Shown: positions 1,757 through 14,180 of the stretch, in pieces
Layout of the letters: the number at the start of each line of letters is the position of its first letter
Numbering within the stretch: position 1 is the first letter of the stretch
Assembly: GCA_030615855.1 (NCBI GenBank)
Contig: JAUWYL010000001.1
Span: 1 to 64,000 of the forward strand
Direction of reading: 5' to 3'
DNA length: 64,000 bases
Source of the DNA: a bacterium
GTDB taxonomy: Bacteria; UBP18; UBA7526
Program-made: the position numbers and the translations under genes
Notes under the pieces: generated by a model
Seen by the model: only the letters and a program-made list of their open reading frames with translations
Database searches by the model: none
Told to the model about the DNA's origin: nothing

Positions 1757-2021
1757 AAACAAAATCCCCTCTAAATCTCCCCAGACCGCATCCCGCATAG
1801 TAGATGGCGAGGCGGTCATCGTCCTCTTAAAGAAGAGCCGGGTGCACGTCCTGAATGAAGTAGGAAGTCGCATCTGGGAACTCTCCAATGGAAAGAGAAG
1901 CATAAAAAAGATTGCAGACACCATCTTCAAGGAGTTCCAGGTCACCAAGAAAAAAGCCCTCAAAGACACCATAGAGTTTGTAAAAAGTTTAACCAAAAAA
2001 GAAATGATGGTCTTAAAATGA
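1746..2021 (+). CDS. PqqD family peptide chaperone / RRE
   Basis: 91 aa; VIVLLKKSRVHVLNEVGSRIWELSNGKRSIKKIADTIFKEFQVTKKKALKDTIEFVKSL typical PqqD; overlaps both neighbours. Confidence 0.85.
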   Translation: MSIENKIPSKSPQTASRIVDGEAVIVLLKKSRVHVLNEVGSRIWELSNGKRSIKKIADTIFKEFQVTKKKALKDTIEFVKSLTKKEMMVLK

Positions 2022-3049
2022 AGTTAGATTATTATCAAAAAATAGTCAAAAAAACAGTGGATGAGAACATCCCATTCACTGTCCACTTCGACCTCACCTA
2101 TAAATGCAATCTGAAATGTGTCCACTGTTATGTTACCGAAGAGAAAGGAGAGAAAGAACTTTCCACTGAAGAGATAAAATCTATTATTAACCAGCTGGCG
2201 GAAGCAAACACCCTCTATCTCACCTTTAGTGGAGGAGAGATTTTCACTCGTGAGGATTTCTTTGAGATTGCTTCTTATGCCCGAAAGAAGGGTTTTGCCC
2301 TACGTCTCCTCACCAATGGAACCCTGGTCACTCCTCAAATAGCAAATAAAATTAGAGACCTAAATCCTCTATCTGTCAGGATGAGTCTCTATGCTACTGA
2401 TCCTGATGTTCATGACGCCATTACCAGATCAAAAGGCTCTCAGCGAAAGACAGTCAAAGCCTTTTCGCTCCTCAAAGAGAGAGAAATAAAGGTTGCCATC
2501 AACTCTGTTTTAATGAAAGAGAATGTAGGGGAATTTAAGAGATTAAAGGCCTTCGCCCAGGAGATAGATTCTGGCTTTGTCTTTGACCTCGGTATTATAC
2601 CTTGTGATAATGGGTCTAAAAAGCCCCTTACCCATAGACTCACAGAGAATGACCTGATTGATTTTTTCTCTTCAAATAGTAGAACATCGGAGTGGGAACC
2701 AATAGAAATACCAGATGATAGCCCCCTATGTGGTGCCGGACTAAATACCATCTATATCTCCCCTTATGGTGAGGCCTATCCCTGTGTCAGTATACGAGAA
2801 AGCTGTGGTAACCTGACCAGACAGCCTTTAAGCGAAATATGGCAGGCACCCATCCTGAAGAGACTCAGGGCCACCAAATTCTCTGATCTAAAAGAGTGTT
2901 CTACCTGCCCCCTTAAGTCTTATTGCTTCCGCTGTCCCGGCCTCGCTTTATTAGAAGACGGCAACCTCTTCGGTCCTTCACAAGCCGCCTGCACTTTAGC
3001 CCGAGCCCGCAAAACCACCTACGAAAAACCACGAAAAGCCACGGATTAG
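2018..3049 (+). CDS. Radical SAM / SPASM domain peptide maturase
   Basis: CNLKCVHC (CxxxCxxC) and C-terminal SPASM cysteines (CGAGLNTIYISPYGEAYPC...CSTCPLKSYCFRCPG). Confidence 0.85.
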   Translation: MKLDYYQKIVKKTVDENIPFTVHFDLTYKCNLKCVHCYVTEEKGEKELSTEEIKSIINQLAEANTLYLTFSGGEIFTREDFFEIASYARKKGFALRLLTNGTLVTPQIANKIRDLNPLSVRMSLYATDPDVHDAITRSKGSQRKTVKAFSLLKEREIKVAINSVLMKENVGEFKRLKAFAQEIDSGFVFDLGIIPCDNGSKKPLTHRLTENDLIDFFSSNSRTSEWEPIEIPDDSPLCGAGLNTIYISPYGEAYPCVSIRESCGNLTRQPLSEIWQAPILKRLRATKFSDLKECSTCPLKSYCFRCPGLALLEDGNLFGPSQAACTLARARKTTYEKPRKATD

Positions 3050-3490
3050 CACGGATTGAAAAGAATAGATGAGCACAGAAAAAAAGTTGTTATATGAGGA
3101 TTTGACATATAAAATAAGAGGGGCCTTGTATGAGATTCATAAAGCATTAGGTCCGGTGCATAAGGAAACAGTCTACCATAATGCTATAGCCATTGAACTT
3201 AAACATCTAAAAATACCATTTAAAACAGAAAAGGTGCTCAAAGTAACCTATCGTGGAGAAACAGTAGGTATTTATAAACCTGATTTCATCATAGATGATA
3301 AAGTAATCCTTGAGATAAAAGCGGTTCCTGCCATAGCAAAAACAATGCTAGATCAGATTTATTACTATGTTAGAGGCTCAAAGTATAGGCTGGTTCTATT
3401 AGCAAACTTTGGAGCCAGAAGACTGGAAATAAAACGAAAGATCTACGGCTAAATATCCGTGCTAATCAGCCATAATCCGTGCTAATCCGT
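3041..3490. repeat. Inverted-repeat-bounded GxxExxY cassette
   Basis: acggattagcacggatt (3041-3057) is the exact reverse complement of aatccgtgctaatccgt (3474-3490). Confidence 0.8.
3069..3452 (+). CDS. GxxExxY family protein (PDDEXK_3-like)
   Basis: YKIRGALYEIHKALGPVHKETVYHNAIAIEL ... KPDFIIDDKVILEIKAV. Confidence 0.85.
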   Translation: MSTEKKLLYEDLTYKIRGALYEIHKALGPVHKETVYHNAIAIELKHLKIPFKTEKVLKVTYRGETVGIYKPDFIIDDKVILEIKAVPAIAKTMLDQIYYYVRGSKYRLVLLANFGARRLEIKRKIYG

Positions 3491-3612
3491 TTTTAATCAG
3501 TGCTAATCCGCGTATAAAGAAGTTTAACAAAGCATTACAATTAATCATCCGTGCTAATCAGTTATAATCTGTGCTAATCAGTGCGACTAAATCAGTGCTA
3601 ATCCGTGTATAG
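3491..3612. repeat. Degenerate direct copies of 'atccgtgctaatcagt' motif
   Basis: Multiple copies of tccgtgctaatc / atctgtgctaatcagtg between cassette and the next small ORF. Confidence 0.7.
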
Positions 3613-3626
3613 AGGAGGTGAAAAAA

Positions 3627-3776
3627 ATGCCCAAGAAAAAAACCTATCGCAAACCAAAAATCATCTATCAGAAAGAGATAGAGACCTTAGCTGTGGTCTG
3701 CAGTTCTGCCAAGGAACCACCCGATGGGCCTTGTCGTACTTCAGTGCCGGAAGGCTGCACCAACCTGTATAGCTAA
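3627..3776 (+). CDS. Candidate RiPP precursor peptide, 49 aa (not in ORF track)
   Basis: gaggaggtgaaaaaaATG; MPKKKTYRKPKIIYQKEIETLAVVCSSAKEPPDGPCRTSVPEGCTNLYS*; leader-like N-terminus, three Cys in C-terminal half, next to HPrK/PqqD/rSAM/S26. Confidence 0.65.
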   Translation: MPKKKTYRKPKIIYQKEIETLAVVCSSAKEPPDGPCRTSVPEGCTNLYS

Positions 3777-3880
3777 TTTATACCCTACCCAGGGTCCGGC
3801 TTCAAAAGTAACAAGGCCCTGAACTTTAGCAAAAAACTCCCTCAAATCCTTCAACTAATTCTGTTTGTTTATCTCCTTTG

Positions 3881-4155
3881 CACACTTTCATCGACGATCG
3901 TCCCTCATTTTGTGTTATTGACTTAATTTAGCGATTGTACACATTCTTATCGACGATCGTCTCCCAATTTGTGTCATCGATTTAATTGTTTAGTTTACTT
4001 CCTACACACTTCGATCGACGATCGTTCATCAATTTGTGCTTTCGGTTTAACTTGATAGTCTGCACATTTTCATCGACGATCGTCTCTCATTTTGTGTTAT
4101 TGACTTAATTTAGCGATTGTACACATTCTTATCGACGATCGTCCATCAGTTTGTG
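3881..4155. promoter_or_regulatory. Array of five 34-bp palindromic putative operators
   Basis: Sites 3881-3914, 3940-3973, 4005-4038, 4063-4096, 4122-4155; each CACA-N9-ACGATCGT-N9-TGTG; core spacing 58-65 nt. Confidence 0.8.
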
Positions 4156-4251: not shown

Positions 4252-5898
4252 ATGTTAAATTCCACGACTAAGGAAGCGGTTGCTCATCTCTTGAGGGAAG
4301 AGATTACATCCGGGAAAGAAGTCTCTTTAAAAGTTGCCCAGGAGAGTATGCGACCTTTGATCAACCCCGGGGATAGGGTAGTGGTCGAAGGCTGCCGAGC
4401 AGAAAACCTTATTCCTGGAGATATCATCCTCTACGAAAAGGAAGGAACTCTTTACACCCATAGGTTCTTGTATCGGAGGGAATTGTTTCTTCTCACCAAA
4501 GGCGACAATGCTCTCTTCCTCGATACCCCCTTTCCTAAAGAGCAACTATTAGGAAAGATAATCACTATTAAGAAGAAATCCAGAACCATTAATCTGAGAA
4601 AGAGATCCTGGAGAATTATCAATTCGGTCTTGGCTATTCTTTTCCTGACCGAAGGTTTGATGTTTGGCATTGCTCGTCGACTAAAGCGAGGTCTTTTTGG
4701 CCACAAAAAGATTCGGAATGATCTTGAAGATAGACTAATCCTTCTCTGTGCCCGAACAAGGATAGATAGCGAAACCAAGGACGAAATCAAGAAGTTACTT
4801 GGGAAAAAATTAAACTGGGATTACTTACTAAAAAGGGCCGAGAGAGAAGGGCTCTCCGGCCTTTTATATTATAATCTAAAGAGATTTAATGAAAGAATTG
4901 TTCCTCCAAGTGTCATGGAGACTTTAGAGGAAAGATATTTCAATATCACTTCTCGCAACCTATTCTTCTTGAAAGAAGTGGGTAGGGTTTTGAAGGCTTT
5001 TAAAGAAGCAGGGATCCCAGCTATGGTCTTAAAGGGCACTTTTCTCATAGAAGAAATCTATAAGAATCCGGGCCTGAGGTCTATGTCCGACATCGATCTC
5101 CTTGTAAAAAGAAAAAACCTTCTCCAGGTCCATGAAGGATTAAAGGGATTGGGCTATACTACCACAGATAACTACTTGGATTATATAGAAAAGCCAATTT
5201 CGGGATATCTCAACAGTCTCTTCTACTACAGAAAAGAAAATGAGGCCTCAATTCCTCTCCACATCCATTGGCATCTGGTAAATTCCAGTGTCCCTAATTA
5301 TATGTTCTCTTCCCGAATCGATATGGGGGGCATCTGGCAAGAGACAGAGAAGATAAAGATAGCGGATGGAGAGGCCTTGAGCTTGGCACCCCATCATCTA
5401 GTTATCTATCTCTCTGAGCATGCCCTGAGGATGAAGCACTCCTTGGATAGGCTCATTCTTCTGTGTGATATCTCTGAGGTGATTGAAGAATATCGTAATG
5501 GGTTGAATTGGGAAAGAGTTATTGAAGATAGTTTCAGGTTCAATCTAGATCGTATGGTCTACTATAACCTATATCTTGTAAGGAAATTTTTAGGGAGGGA
5601 AATCCCTTCTTATGTTTTGAAGAGGCTCAGGCCAGAGAGGCCTGGTTATTTCGAAAGAAAATTCGTATCCTTCATTTCGAAGAACAGGCGCTTTCCAGGC
5701 TTAAGTTATTTACTGTACCTTTCCTTGAATAGGGGACTGTTTGCCAAGGGGAGGTTCGTCTTTAGAACATTCTTCCCTCCCCGCCAGGTAATGGCCCAGA
5801 GGAATAACATCTCCCGAAAAAATTTGACCCCTCTTCCTTACCTACGCCATTTAAGAGAAGTATTAGGCCCTCTTCCCAAATTGATACGCTATCTTTAA
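4252..5898 (+). CDS. S24/S26-type signal peptidase-like domain fused to nucleotidyltransferase family (PF14907-like) domain
   Basis: SMRPLINPGDRVVV ... GDIILYEKEGTLYTHRF ... LLTKGDNALFLD (S26 motifs), hydrophobic segment, then MVLKGTFLIEEIYKNPGLRSMSDIDLLVKR; start moved from 4237 to 4252, preceded by ggagg. Confidence 0.75.
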   Translation: MLNSTTKEAVAHLLREEITSGKEVSLKVAQESMRPLINPGDRVVVEGCRAENLIPGDIILYEKEGTLYTHRFLYRRELFLLTKGDNALFLDTPFPKEQLLGKIITIKKKSRTINLRKRSWRIINSVLAILFLTEGLMFGIARRLKRGLFGHKKIRNDLEDRLILLCARTRIDSETKDEIKKLLGKKLNWDYLLKRAEREGLSGLLYYNLKRFNERIVPPSVMETLEERYFNITSRNLFFLKEVGRVLKAFKEAGIPAMVLKGTFLIEEIYKNPGLRSMSDIDLLVKRKNLLQVHEGLKGLGYTTTDNYLDYIEKPISGYLNSLFYYRKENEASIPLHIHWHLVNSSVPNYMFSSRIDMGGIWQETEKIKIADGEALSLAPHHLVIYLSEHALRMKHSLDRLILLCDISEVIEEYRNGLNWERVIEDSFRFNLDRMVYYNLYLVRKFLGREIPSYVLKRLRPERPGYFERKFVSFISKNRRFPGLSYLLYLSLNRGLFAKGRFVFRTFFPPRQVMAQRNNISRKNLTPLPYLRHLREVLGPLPKLIRYL

Positions 5899-5927
5899 AA
5901 ATGATAATTATCCAATACTCCCTTTGA

Positions 5928-6017
5928 CACAGATCAATCAACGATCGTCCTCTGAAATGTGCACATGTTAAATTGAGCCAATACACAAATCAATCGACGA
6001 TCGTCTCTAAAATTGTG
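5928..6017. promoter_or_regulatory. Two 34-bp palindromic putative operators upstream of PaaX-like gene
   Basis: 5928-5961 and 5984-6017; same CACA-N9-ACGATCGT-N9-TGTG arrangement. Confidence 0.75.
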
Positions 6018-6055: not shown

Positions 6056-6847
6056 ATGAAAGGACGAGTCTCTACCACAAAGATTATCCTTTCTCTTTTG
6101 GACGATGCCCTCAGGCTTCATAGAGATCCCATGACTTCTCTTTTGGAAGAGATGGGGAAAACGGCGCGTGCTGCCCAGGTAGCACTCACCAGACTTGAGA
6201 AAAAGGGCCAGATCAAGAAGGTGAATCAGAAGGAAGGAGTCTTCTTCTCTCTGACAGATGAGGGGAGGGCCCAGATTCCGGACAATCCCCATAGGCTGAA
6301 AAGAAAAGAGCGGAGATGGGATGGGAGATGGTATCTAGTGAGCTTCGATATCCCGGAGAAGAATAGAAGGATGAGGAACCTCTTCAGGCGATATCTGGTC
6401 AGCCTGGGATGTGGAAGGATGCAGAAGAGCCTTTGGATATCGCCTTACAATCGTTCTCGAAGAATACAATCCATGATTAACGAAATGGGCCTGGAAAAGT
6501 ATGTGGAGACCTTCTCTGCTCAACATCTGGGAAGAAGTGATAGCAAAACCTTAGCCTCTTGGATCTGGAAACTCGAGGAATTGAATGAACGCTACTCCGA
6601 ATTTATAGACCATTATAATCCTCTACTTTCCAGATTGAAGAGGGAGGCAAGCACTAAAGGCCAAGAGATAGGACTTCTGCATCTCAAGAGAAGAATAGAG
6701 AAAGATCTGGCCCAAATCTTGAGGAACGATCCTCAGCTCCCCAATAATCTCTTGCCTTCCGATTGGAGGGGAGAGAAGGCCTATCAACTCTTTGAAGAAT
6801 ATTATAGCTTAATCCTTAAAAGAATTGAGCCGAGGAGAAAGAAGTAG
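6056..6847 (+). CDS. PaaX-like transcriptional regulator
   Basis: N-terminal winged-helix-like segment (AAQVALTRLEKKGQIKKVNQKEGVFFSLTDEG) and central WDGRWYLVSFDIPEKNRRMRNLFRRYLVSLGCGRMQKSLWISPYN. Confidence 0.65.
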   Translation: MKGRVSTTKIILSLLDDALRLHRDPMTSLLEEMGKTARAAQVALTRLEKKGQIKKVNQKEGVFFSLTDEGRAQIPDNPHRLKRKERRWDGRWYLVSFDIPEKNRRMRNLFRRYLVSLGCGRMQKSLWISPYNRSRRIQSMINEMGLEKYVETFSAQHLGRSDSKTLASWIWKLEELNERYSEFIDHYNPLLSRLKREASTKGQEIGLLHLKRRIEKDLAQILRNDPQLPNNLLPSDWRGEKAYQLFEEYYSLILKRIEPRRKK

Positions 6848-6851
6848 ATTG

Positions 6852-6885
6852 CACAAATCAATCGACGATCGTCGATTGATTTGTG
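6852..6885. promoter_or_regulatory. Perfect 34-bp palindrome, same family as upstream operator array
   Basis: cacaaatcaatcgacgatcgtcgattgatttgtg equals its own reverse complement; lies between convergent genes. Confidence 0.75.
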
Positions 6886-6908: not shown

Positions 6909-7718
6909 TCAGTATTGGATGAGACTTCCGTCCCTCTTTGCTTTCTTGATGGCGTAGTTAAAGACCAGGATGCCTAAGGGAAGCAGGATAATGGAGAAGA
7001 TGGCCAGGGCCATTATGTTGGGTAATAAAGTTCCCCAACTGGGGTCTCCTAATAGGGAGTTTCTTATACCCCTTAAGGAGTAGGTGATGGGCAGAAGATG
7101 GGAGAGCCTCTGAAGGGGTTGGGGAAGGATAGTGATGGGGTAGTAGACCCCACCCAAGAGGATGGAGAGGGTGGTGAAGAGCCAGGTTATGGGATTCCCC
7201 CTCTTGAAGACGATGATGAAACCCGCAGCGATGATTCCCAGACTGCTAAAAGAGATAATGGTTAGAATAAGAATAATAAAGGCGGGCAGAAGGTGAGTAA
7301 GGTTTAGACTCACCTTGAATAGGAAGACGCCGAGCAGAAGGTAGATCAAGACATTTAGAGAGGTTCGGATGAAGCTCCAGAGGGAGAGGGAGACGACTAA
7401 TACGCTTATTTTGGTAGGGGTGAGGAGCATGGCCTCTAAGGTGCCCATCATCTGTTCCCTTCTTATGCTACCTGAGAAGCTCTGTAGTCCCACTCCCAGA
7501 TAGGTGGAGAAGGCCAATCCGATTAGAACGAAGGGGAAGTATTCCCCTCCGTAATCCTTGAGATAGGGGGCAGCGCTCTCCCCAAATAGCTTAGAGATGA
7601 AGAAGAAGGTGACCACCCAGAAGAGGATGCTGAAGAGGTTGAGCAGGAAGGAGAAGCGATAACTTATCTCAACAAGAAAATCCCTCTTGATGAAGGCCAA
7701 AGGCTTCCTTAGGAACAA
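6909..7718 (-). CDS. ABC-2 type transporter permease
   Basis: Multi-TM; FSGSIRREQMMGTLEAMLLTPTKISVLVVS, ILLGGVYYPITILPQPLQRLSHLLPITYSL. Confidence 0.85.
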   Translation of the reverse strand: MFLRKPLAFIKRDFLVEISYRFSFLLNLFSILFWVVTFFFISKLFGESAAPYLKDYGGEYFPFVLIGLAFSTYLGVGLQSFSGSIRREQMMGTLEAMLLTPTKISVLVVSLSLWSFIRTSLNVLIYLLLGVFLFKVSLNLTHLLPAFIILILTIISFSSLGIIAAGFIIVFKRGNPITWLFTTLSILLGGVYYPITILPQPLQRLSHLLPITYSLRGIRNSLLGDPSWGTLLPNIMALAIFSIILLPLGILVFNYAIKKAKRDGSLIQY

Positions 7719-7785: not shown

Positions 7786-8577
7786 CTATTTGCTGGTGAA
7801 GTAAGAAAAGATTTCTTCCATAGTAGCCTTGGGGGTCTTCGCCTTTCTTCGTAATTCTGTTAGTGTCCCGCAGGCCTTTATCCTGCCTTGGTCTATGATG
7901 GCGATACGGTCGCAGATTTCCTGGGCCTCGTTCATCTGATGGGTAGTCAAGAAGACGGTCTTCTTCTGTTGAGAGACGAGTTTCTCTCTAATAAAAGTCC
8001 TCAAATTCTTGGCAGCGGTAGGATCCAGACTCTTGGTGGGCTCATCCATAAATAGAATCTGGGGATTGGGCAATAGGCTCCTTGCTAAGGAGAGCCTCTG
8101 CTTCATGCCAGTAGAATATTCCTTAAAGGAGATATTTAGCATCCCTTCTATCTCCAAGAGTCCAGCCACCTCTCCCATTCTCTTCTTTATTTGGGTCGAA
8201 GAGAGATTATAAAGAATAGCAAAGAATTCCAGATTCTGTCTACCAGTCAGTCGCCAGTAGAAGCAGCGCTCCTCACCAGTCACCAGTCCAATGGACTCCT
8301 TAACCCCGGCTTCATCCTTCAGGATGTTATATCCATTGACATAGGCCTCTCCCCTGGTGGGCAATATGAGAGTAGAGAGTAACTTTAAGAGGGTGGTTTT
8401 ACCCGCTCCATTGGGACCCAGAAGTCCAAATATCTCTCCCCTTTTTACCTGGATATTCACCTCTTCTACTGCCTTGACCACTCCCTTTGTCCCGAAGGGA
8501 TGGGCGAGCAATCTCCCCAGGCCAGGGGTAGGAGTGAAGTATTTTGTGAGATTTATGGTTTCTATGGCATAGGGCAT
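7786..8577 (-). CDS. ABC transporter ATP-binding protein
   Basis: GLLGPNGAGKTTLLK Walker A, YSTGMKQRLSLARSLLPNPQILFMDEPT; start at MPYAIETINL preferred over 8670. Confidence 0.9.
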   Translation of the reverse strand: MPYAIETINLTKYFTPTPGLGRLLAHPFGTKGVVKAVEEVNIQVKRGEIFGLLGPNGAGKTTLLKLLSTLILPTRGEAYVNGYNILKDEAGVKESIGLVTGEERCFYWRLTGRQNLEFFAILYNLSSTQIKKRMGEVAGLLEIEGMLNISFKEYSTGMKQRLSLARSLLPNPQILFMDEPTKSLDPTAAKNLRTFIREKLVSQQKKTVFLTTHQMNEAQEICDRIAIIDQGRIKACGTLTELRRKAKTPKATMEEIFSYFTSK

Positions 8578-8702
8578 GACAGCCTCCGATACAATAGGTA
8601 GTTTAACAGATAAGAAATAGGATGTCAAACTCAGATTTGACAATCCATGCAATATAAGATATAATATCAAACAAATTACATAGGGCGTAAAGAGAGGCCA
8701 AA

Positions 8703-13629: not shown

Positions 13630-14180
13630 ACACAGATGATCGCAGATGGAAAGACGTTAATCGGTAACGGTAACGAAGCCCGTATCGGTTAATGGTTAGG
13701 GTAACGTAAAATGGAAGGAAAAAAGAGAATCACGAGCTTTAGAAATTTAGAGGTATACCAGAATACTTATAATGCTATGCTAATTGTGATGAAAGAAATT
13801 GTGCCTAAATTACCTGATAACGAAAAATACGATTTAAAGGACCAATCGAGTCGTGCATGTAAAACAATACCAAGATTAATAGCAGAAGGCTATGCTAAAC
13901 GTCATCAAAAAGCAGGCTTTCAAAAATATATCGATGACGCTATGGGTGAATGTAACGAGATGGTTGTTAGTTTAAGTCAGTGTAGAGATATTTATCCTAC
14001 ATATGTAAATGTAAAACGTTGCGATGAGTTAATTGATGTATATGATAAATCAGGAAGACAGCTTTATAAATTAGGTAACGCTTGGACAAATTTTAAAGAC
14101 GATAGACGTAACCGTAAGACGAAACGGGCATCGTAACCTTAACCGTAAGACGATATTAAAAAATCTGTGATAATCTGTGT
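13630..14180. repeat. Inverted-repeat-bounded four-helix-bundle cassette
   Basis: acacagatgatcgcagat (13630-13647) vs reverse complement of atctgtgataatctgtgt (14163-14180), 16/18; a further inner imperfect repeat (gtaacgaagcccgtatcg / cgaaacgggcatcgtaac). Confidence 0.75.
13711..14136 (+). CDS. Four helix bundle protein (23S rRNA IVS/S23-like)
   Basis: SFRNLEVYQNTYNAMLIVMKEIVPKLPDNEKYDLKDQSSRACKTIPRLIAEGYAKRHQKAGFQKYIDDAMGECNEM. Confidence 0.85.
   Translation: MEGKKRITSFRNLEVYQNTYNAMLIVMKEIVPKLPDNEKYDLKDQSSRACKTIPRLIAEGYAKRHQKAGFQKYIDDAMGECNEMVVSLSQCRDIYPTYVNVKRCDELIDVYDKSGRQLYKLGNAWTNFKDDRRNRKTKRAS

Follow-up and report, generated by a model that had tools for sequence, protein, structure and literature searches.

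The window, by which we mean the whole 64-kb stretch of DNA analysed here, belongs to a 1.4-Mb genome bin of 45 contigs that is 93.6 % complete. On its forward strand, positions 3627 to 3776 hold a 49-codon reading frame, running from an ATG at 3627 to a TAA at 3774-3776, which encodes the peptide MPKKKTYRKPKIIYQKEIETLAVVCSSAKEPPDGPCRTSVPEGCTNLYS, divided here into a leader and a core as MPKKKTYRKPKIIYQKEIET-LAVVCSSAKEPPDGPCRTSVPEGCTNLYS. The frame is preceded by a strong Shine-Dalgarno sequence, AGGAGGTG (3613-3620, forward strand), the equivalent of which in the same-genus genome G004 is GGGAGGTG. A first-pass annotation had singled out this unannotated ORF as a candidate precursor for the nearby radical SAM maturase, situated between a GxxExxY gene and a repeat array; the ORF and its ribosome-binding site read exactly as claimed, and the position agrees (GxxExxY gene at 3069-3452, array at 3879-4155). 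Six ORFs of 35-100 aa with a GGAGG-type site and an ATG start are found in the window, and among these only the 3627-3776 peptide has both a YxxP leader motif and three Cys residues. Searches of Pfam and NCBIfam with the peptide and with 12 of its homologues gave no family, the one match being to rhodolasso with an E-value of 0.53.

The window's own phylum is represented by six genomes in the set we searched. G004 carries a 47-aa homologue, MPKKKTYQKPRIVYQKEIETLAGICTSAYEGDWICQTDYGACTKIVT, in the same place (E 3e-12). Over leader codons 1-25 of the two genes, 12 are identical, eight differ synonymously and five nonsynonymously, whereas the core has been rewritten, with little in common beyond Cys and the final hydroxyl residue. 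A conserved leader followed by a rewritten core is the pattern expected for leader and core and argues against a chance ORF, and we regard the 3627-3776 ORF as almost certainly a real precursor gene.

Upstream of it lie three forward-strand genes. The first (920-1756) encodes an HprK-like kinase of 278 aa, which matches the NCBIfam model HprK_rel_B at 2.4e-8, below the curated cut-off. Since a phmmer search of the kinase against the PDB gave nothing significant, an AlphaFold model (pLDDT 87.6, pTM 0.85) was used for a fold search, which matched PEPCK and HprK structures. The residues H121, G136, G141, K142, S143, D157 and D158 are present, and among 68 homologues the His and the Lys are each conserved in 66 and the first Asp in 63; the His, GK[S/T] and Asp thus conserved are those named as essential for lasso kinases. 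The second gene (1746-2021) encodes a discrete PqqD-type RRE of 91 aa (Pfam PqqD 8.5e-13, lasso_PqqD_Bac 1.7e-12), whose best solved relative is the lasso RRE TbiB1 (5v1u). When it is aligned to 9x8z, its N37, D74 and F78 fall on N33, D70 and F74 of LppB, and of 58 homologues 47 keep the N, 48 the D and 44 the F. The third (2018-3049) encodes a radical SAM/SPASM enzyme of 343 aa (Pfam Radical_SAM 7.7e-26, SPASM 3.3e-12), with the CxxxCxxC motif at C30, C34 and C37 and SPASM cysteines at C238, C256, C294, C297, C303 and C306, all in invariant columns. Its best NCBIfam match is the sactipeptide maturase StsB, with a score of 145 bits where the cut-off is 625, and its top solved relative is SkfB, a thioether maturase; the NCBIfam matches of the kinase, the radical SAM enzyme and the PqqD-type protein all fall under the curated cut-offs.

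Downstream, also on the forward strand, a single gene (4252-5898) encodes a fusion of a SipW/archaeal-type signal peptidase, a hydrophobic helix at about residues 122-140 and an NTP_transf_5 nucleotidyltransferase (Pfam NTP_transf_5 2.3e-51, Peptidase_S24 6.9e-5; 49.7 bits against the sigpep_I_arch cut-off of 51.85). The peptidase residues S32, H70 and D85 are conserved in 46, 49 and 49 of 50 homologues and correspond to S29, H68 and D93 of LppS. The fusion is followed by a PaaX-like regulator gene (6056-6847) and then, convergent with the cassette on the reverse strand, by an ABC-2 permease (6909-7718, Pfam ABC2_membrane 5.1e-18) and its partner ATPase (7786-8634, Pfam ABC_tran 2.4e-27), a layout that is the same in relatives. 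The kinase and the peptidase/nucleotidyltransferase fusion, which the first-pass annotation did not name, are the decisive partners of the peptide.

Two other features next to the peptide gene do not belong to this set. In the congener the place of the GxxExxY gene is taken by a 23S_rRNA_IVP four-helix protein (L033, 2677-3120), and the other annotated cassettes need neither of the two, so that the slot looks like an insertion site; GxxExxY was accordingly rejected as a cassette partner, being replaced in one genome and dispensable in others. The GxxExxY gene stands among degenerate CCGTGCTAATC repeats (3060-3610), and two different hitchhiking ORFs thus occupy one site in the window and its congener; a further 23S_rRNA_IVP four-helix-bundle gene lies in the window at 13711-14136. 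The second feature is the set of operator-like repeats around CGACGATCGTC, of which five copies (3879-4155) precede the peptidase/nucleotidyltransferase gene and two (5927-6017) precede the PaaX-like gene, with a perfect 34-base palindrome (6851-6885) after the latter. These repeats are probably sites for the PaaX-like regulator; the array has its palindrome in common with the sites on either side of the PaaX-like gene, and may therefore control the gene for the peptidase/nucleotidyltransferase fusion. The array also occurs in G004, has so far been seen only in the window's genus, and is not part of the cassette.

To see how far the gene set extends, we scanned 85,462 species genomes with the radical SAM enzyme and annotated the loci found by HMM. 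The same set of genes, often in the same order, was observed in seven loci from Omnitrophota, three from Elusimicrobia, two from Acidobacteria, one each from Verrucomicrobia and Desulfobulbaceae, and one from genome G042. In gene terms the cassette consists of an HprK-like kinase, a PqqD-type RRE, a radical SAM/SPASM enzyme, a peptide, a Ser-His-Asp signal peptidase and a nucleotidyltransferase, often with an ABC-2 exporter. One Omnitrophota locus, L037, repeats the order of the window throughout (kinase, RRE, radical SAM enzyme, peptide, peptidase, NTP_transf_5 protein and convergent ABC pair), with the peptide starting five bases past the end of the radical SAM match; its kinase has E-E where other kinases have D-D/E. 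All of these loci contain a short reading frame with YxxPx[ILV], or a motif close to it, ahead of a variable, Cys-containing core, whereas two further genomes, G048 and G046, have the enzymes and no recognisable precursor was found nearby. The first-pass annotation had proposed looking for homologous small ORFs beside related radical SAM genes; such ORFs exist in the congener and at over 40 loci besides, conserved in the leader and variable in the core, and the idea of a precursor for the maturase has thus held up. The genomes compared are mostly metagenome bins.

A kinase-first survey of Omnitrophota led to the same neighbourhood, with a radical SAM gene within 6 kb in 38 of 40 kinase loci, and brought up further precursors; taking all kinases, 63 of 65 had a radical SAM/SPASM gene within 6 kb. 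Of the 386 Omnitrophota genomes sampled, 107 had HprK-type kinase matches, namely 12 of the 13 with a precursor match vs. 95 of the remaining 373 (p 1.3e-6), although many of the Omnitrophota loci are related and these counts are not independent.

Several loci depart from the common arrangement. Three genomes from Omnitrophota have a cassette without a precursor next to it, and a peptide of the same leader type (...EINALGCAKC...IRGxKKYS) is encoded elsewhere in the genome, which suggests that these peptides act in trans with the cassettes. Seven loci, including one of those from Elusimicrobia, form a sub-type with two to four radical SAM genes in most clusters; its precursors are of the type KF(R/K)PxITRxKLNPEQAVLxCxCY, have long Gly/Tyr/Trp-rich cores ending in Ser, and often number at least two per cluster. 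The G042 cluster (L034, 10232-14670) also encodes a second radical SAM enzyme, DUF512-like in its tail, as well as an enzyme resembling protein-arginine methyltransferases, which are possible extra tailoring enzymes.

Turning to the peptide itself, the leader was originally described as Lys/Tyr-rich. It is indeed leader-like, but that description is incomplete, as the leader bears an RRE-binding motif, YxxPx[ILV], here Y7-R-K-P10-K-I12 (3645-3662, forward strand; Y and P invariant in A2). Motifs of the YxxP type have been described in lasso, PQQ and LPP leaders (PMC13381572, PMC10368454, PMC12710340). The predicted end of the leader is I18-E19-T20 (3678-3686, forward strand), with cleavage probably after T20 by analogy with the F-E-T of LPP precursors; P-x7-[FIVL]-E-x is found in 22 of about 24 precursors of the window's sub-type.

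The three cysteines noticed in the tail are there, at Cys25 (3699-3701), Cys36 (3732-3734) and Cys44 (3756-3758), all on the forward strand and all predicted targets of the radical SAM enzyme; the C-terminal Ser, which had not been singled out, is equally conserved. That the product carries thioether bonds appears to us rather probable: A2 and A3 without exception have a first Cys 12-22 residues past the RRE motif, and both the top curated match of the enzyme and its top solved relative are maturases of this kind. A competing view, which we hold to be possible though clearly less probable, keeps the phosphorylated, nucleotidylated peptide but has the radical SAM enzyme carry out an epimerisation or form a C-C bond, or has the cysteines serve for disulfides or metal binding, with no cross-linking of Cys by the enzyme. 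It can draw on the scatter of the best scores over the StsB, NirJ2, AhbD, mycofactocin and PqqE models, none of them above its curated cut-off, and on the number of Cys residues, which varies from two to five with different spacing between precursor sub-types; the invariant first Cys and the two closest relatives of the enzyme are what speak for cross-linking instead.

The C-terminal residue, Ser49 (3771-3773, forward strand), was considered in a set of 49 precursor candidates that had been chosen by their N-terminal half and their nearness to a kinase only. The last residue is Ser in 33 and Thr in six of these, giving 39 of 49 against 11.5 expected from shuffled cores, while among neighbouring genes of the kinase cassettes only 31 of 349 end in this way (Fisher p 1.4e-25; the loci are partly related and such p-values overstate their independence, though the cores are very different). 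About three of the 10 candidates that do not end in Ser/Thr are evident chance ORFs. This excess agrees with what lasso HprK-type kinases are known to phosphorylate, and we consider it likely that the C-terminal residue is the kinase site in the window peptide. One could also imagine that the kinase acts on the part of the core that adjoins the leader, as do LppK and BsfK of the LPP and Bsf systems, whose target is core residue 3 (PMC13381572, PMC10368454), and that the C-terminal Ser is kept for recognition by the radical SAM enzyme, export or the like. The window core does have Ser at 26-27, directly after Cys25; however, at the predicted core residue 3 the closest homologues have Val, Gly, Ala or Leu instead of Ser/Thr, and the conserved hydroxyl residue of the precursors is the last one, which makes this placement of the phosphate unlikely.

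Taken together, a conserved leader, a variable core and an adjoining RRE with modifying enzymes are what one looks for in a RiPP precursor. We are quite confident that the window ORF encodes the precursor of a phosphate-tailored radical SAM RiPP. That it is instead a lasso precursor is very improbable: the YxxPxI leader, an RRE closest to TbiB1 and a kinase and nucleotidyltransferase as in the paeninodin and pseudomycoidin clusters all look lasso-like, but the genome gives no match to lasso peptidase B2 (PF13471, Transglut_core3), its Asn_synthase genes are 44 kb distant or sit on different contigs, and all annotated cassettes have the radical SAM enzyme in place of a cyclase, so that the genes present rule out lasso membership, short of a cyclase acting in trans. 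A chance ORF, or a small protein unconnected with the maturase, might be suspected from the small size, the lack of a family match and the 577 bases separating it from the radical SAM gene, yet conservation rules this out, given the constraint on the leader in the congener, the same neighbouring genes in many phyla and the L037 peptide that starts right behind the radical SAM match.

From what was observed, namely a conserved gene, the cassette around it, the motifs, the catalytic residues and the C-terminal Ser/Thr preference, we infer the chemical steps, their order and the export as follows. The PqqD-type RRE would bind the leader at Y7-x-x-P10-x-I12 and present the peptide to the enzymes, after which the radical SAM/SPASM enzyme would modify the core, the most likely reaction being the formation of thioether cross-links at some of its three Cys residues. 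The HprK-like kinase would phosphorylate Ser49, perhaps several times, and the NTP_transf_5 domain would then place a nucleotidyl or sugar group on the phosphate. The signal-peptidase domain would cut off the leader, probably after I-E-T20, to release the core LAVVCSSAKEPPDGPCRTSVPEGCTNLYS, and the convergent ABC-2 transporter may serve for export of the product or for immunity. On balance we lean towards a RiPP class of its own, widespread outside Bacillota, the members of which would be modified by radical SAM enzymes (probably thioether-bridged), phosphorylated at the C-terminus and nucleotidylated or glycosylated.

To our knowledge, an HprK-type kinase, an RRE and a nucleotidyltransferase have previously been seen together only in lasso and LPP systems. 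In the window this tailoring set comes together with a radical SAM enzyme, in a little-known cassette that turns up again in several bacterial phyla which are poorly studied and almost without cultured members, and in genomes of this sort small precursor genes get missed by annotation. If our reading is true, it would unify lasso-type phospho-tailoring with radical SAM chemistry, and it bears on the role of phosphate-bearing RiPPs and of their nucleotidyltransferases. The conserved C-terminal Ser yields predictions at the level of one residue, and with four or five small genes the class is directly testable.

Several known systems share parts of this design. Sactipeptide and ranthipeptide systems such as streptosactin (StsB/StsC) have in common with the window a radical SAM/SPASM enzyme with an RRE, a leader of the W/Y/LxxP type and a Cys-containing core, yet even the best curated match, StsB itself, stays far below its cut-off. 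We know of no report of a kinase, a nucleotidyltransferase or a signal peptidase as parts of such systems. SynChlorMet (ScmC kinase-like, ScmD PqqD-like, ScmE/ScmF radical SAM; TIGR04248-04251) has the same combination of HprK-related, PqqD and radical SAM proteins, and membership was rejected on the weak matches of the three window proteins (28.8, 26.3 and 112 bits against curated cut-offs of 125, 100 and 400). In the open-access journal papers that we searched, no description was found of an HPr kinase in a radical SAM RiPP cluster.

Lasso clusters of the paeninodin type use an HPr-type kinase to phosphorylate the C-terminal Ser, and the attachment of hexoses to the phosphate of pseudomycoidin requires a nucleotidyltransferase (PMC8498205, PMC9266682). 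These clusters (kinases PadeK, ThcoK and PsmK, nucleotidyltransferase PsmN) share with the window a YxxP/WxxP leader, an RRE, the His-Lys-Asp-Asp motif of the HPr-type kinase, a C-terminal Ser as substrate (predicted in the window) and a nucleotidyltransferase; the window differs in lacking a macrolactam cyclase and a B2 peptidase and in having a radical SAM enzyme and a signal-peptidase-type protease.

The closest described system is the LPP family of linear polyphosphorylated peptides, reported in May 2026 from the lpp cluster of Paenibacillus alginolyticus, with a kinase, an RRE, a SipW-like peptidase, an NTP transferase and a transporter, and called restricted to Bacillota in a paper that makes no mention of radical SAM (PMC13381572). 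There the SipW-like LppS cuts RRE-bound precursors with a YxxP leader after F-E-T, and the kinase target is core Ser3 (PMC13381572). Common to both are an HprK-like kinase, a discrete RRE of the PqqD type that agrees in its N, D and F contacts, a SipW-like Ser-His-Asp peptidase, an NTP transferase (in the window by its NTP_transf_5 family match), a YxxP leader ending in a motif of the [F/I]-E-[T/A] type, a variable core and no lasso cyclase. The YxxPx[IV] part of the LPP leader pattern is likewise present, but the spacing is P-x7-[FI]-E in the window vs. P-x9-F-E-T in LPP (YxxPxVLxHQxIxFETxxS, P-x9-F-x-[T/A]). The window core lacks Ser3, has the conserved hydroxyl residue (Ser/Thr) at its C-terminus instead, and contains conserved Cys; the window sub-type has an ABC-2 permease with a separate ATPase where LPP has an MsbA-like exporter; a radical SAM/SPASM enzyme stands in the cassette where LPP has no cross-linking enzyme; and the cassette type occurs outside Bacillota. 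Because leader spacing and Ser3, transporter type and absence of a cross-linking enzyme all set it apart, we do not file the window under LPP; the system would work in the manner of an LPP with a radical SAM step and a C-terminal phosphate site in addition, and in its gene content the system is a radical SAM variant of the phosphorylated lasso/LPP kind.
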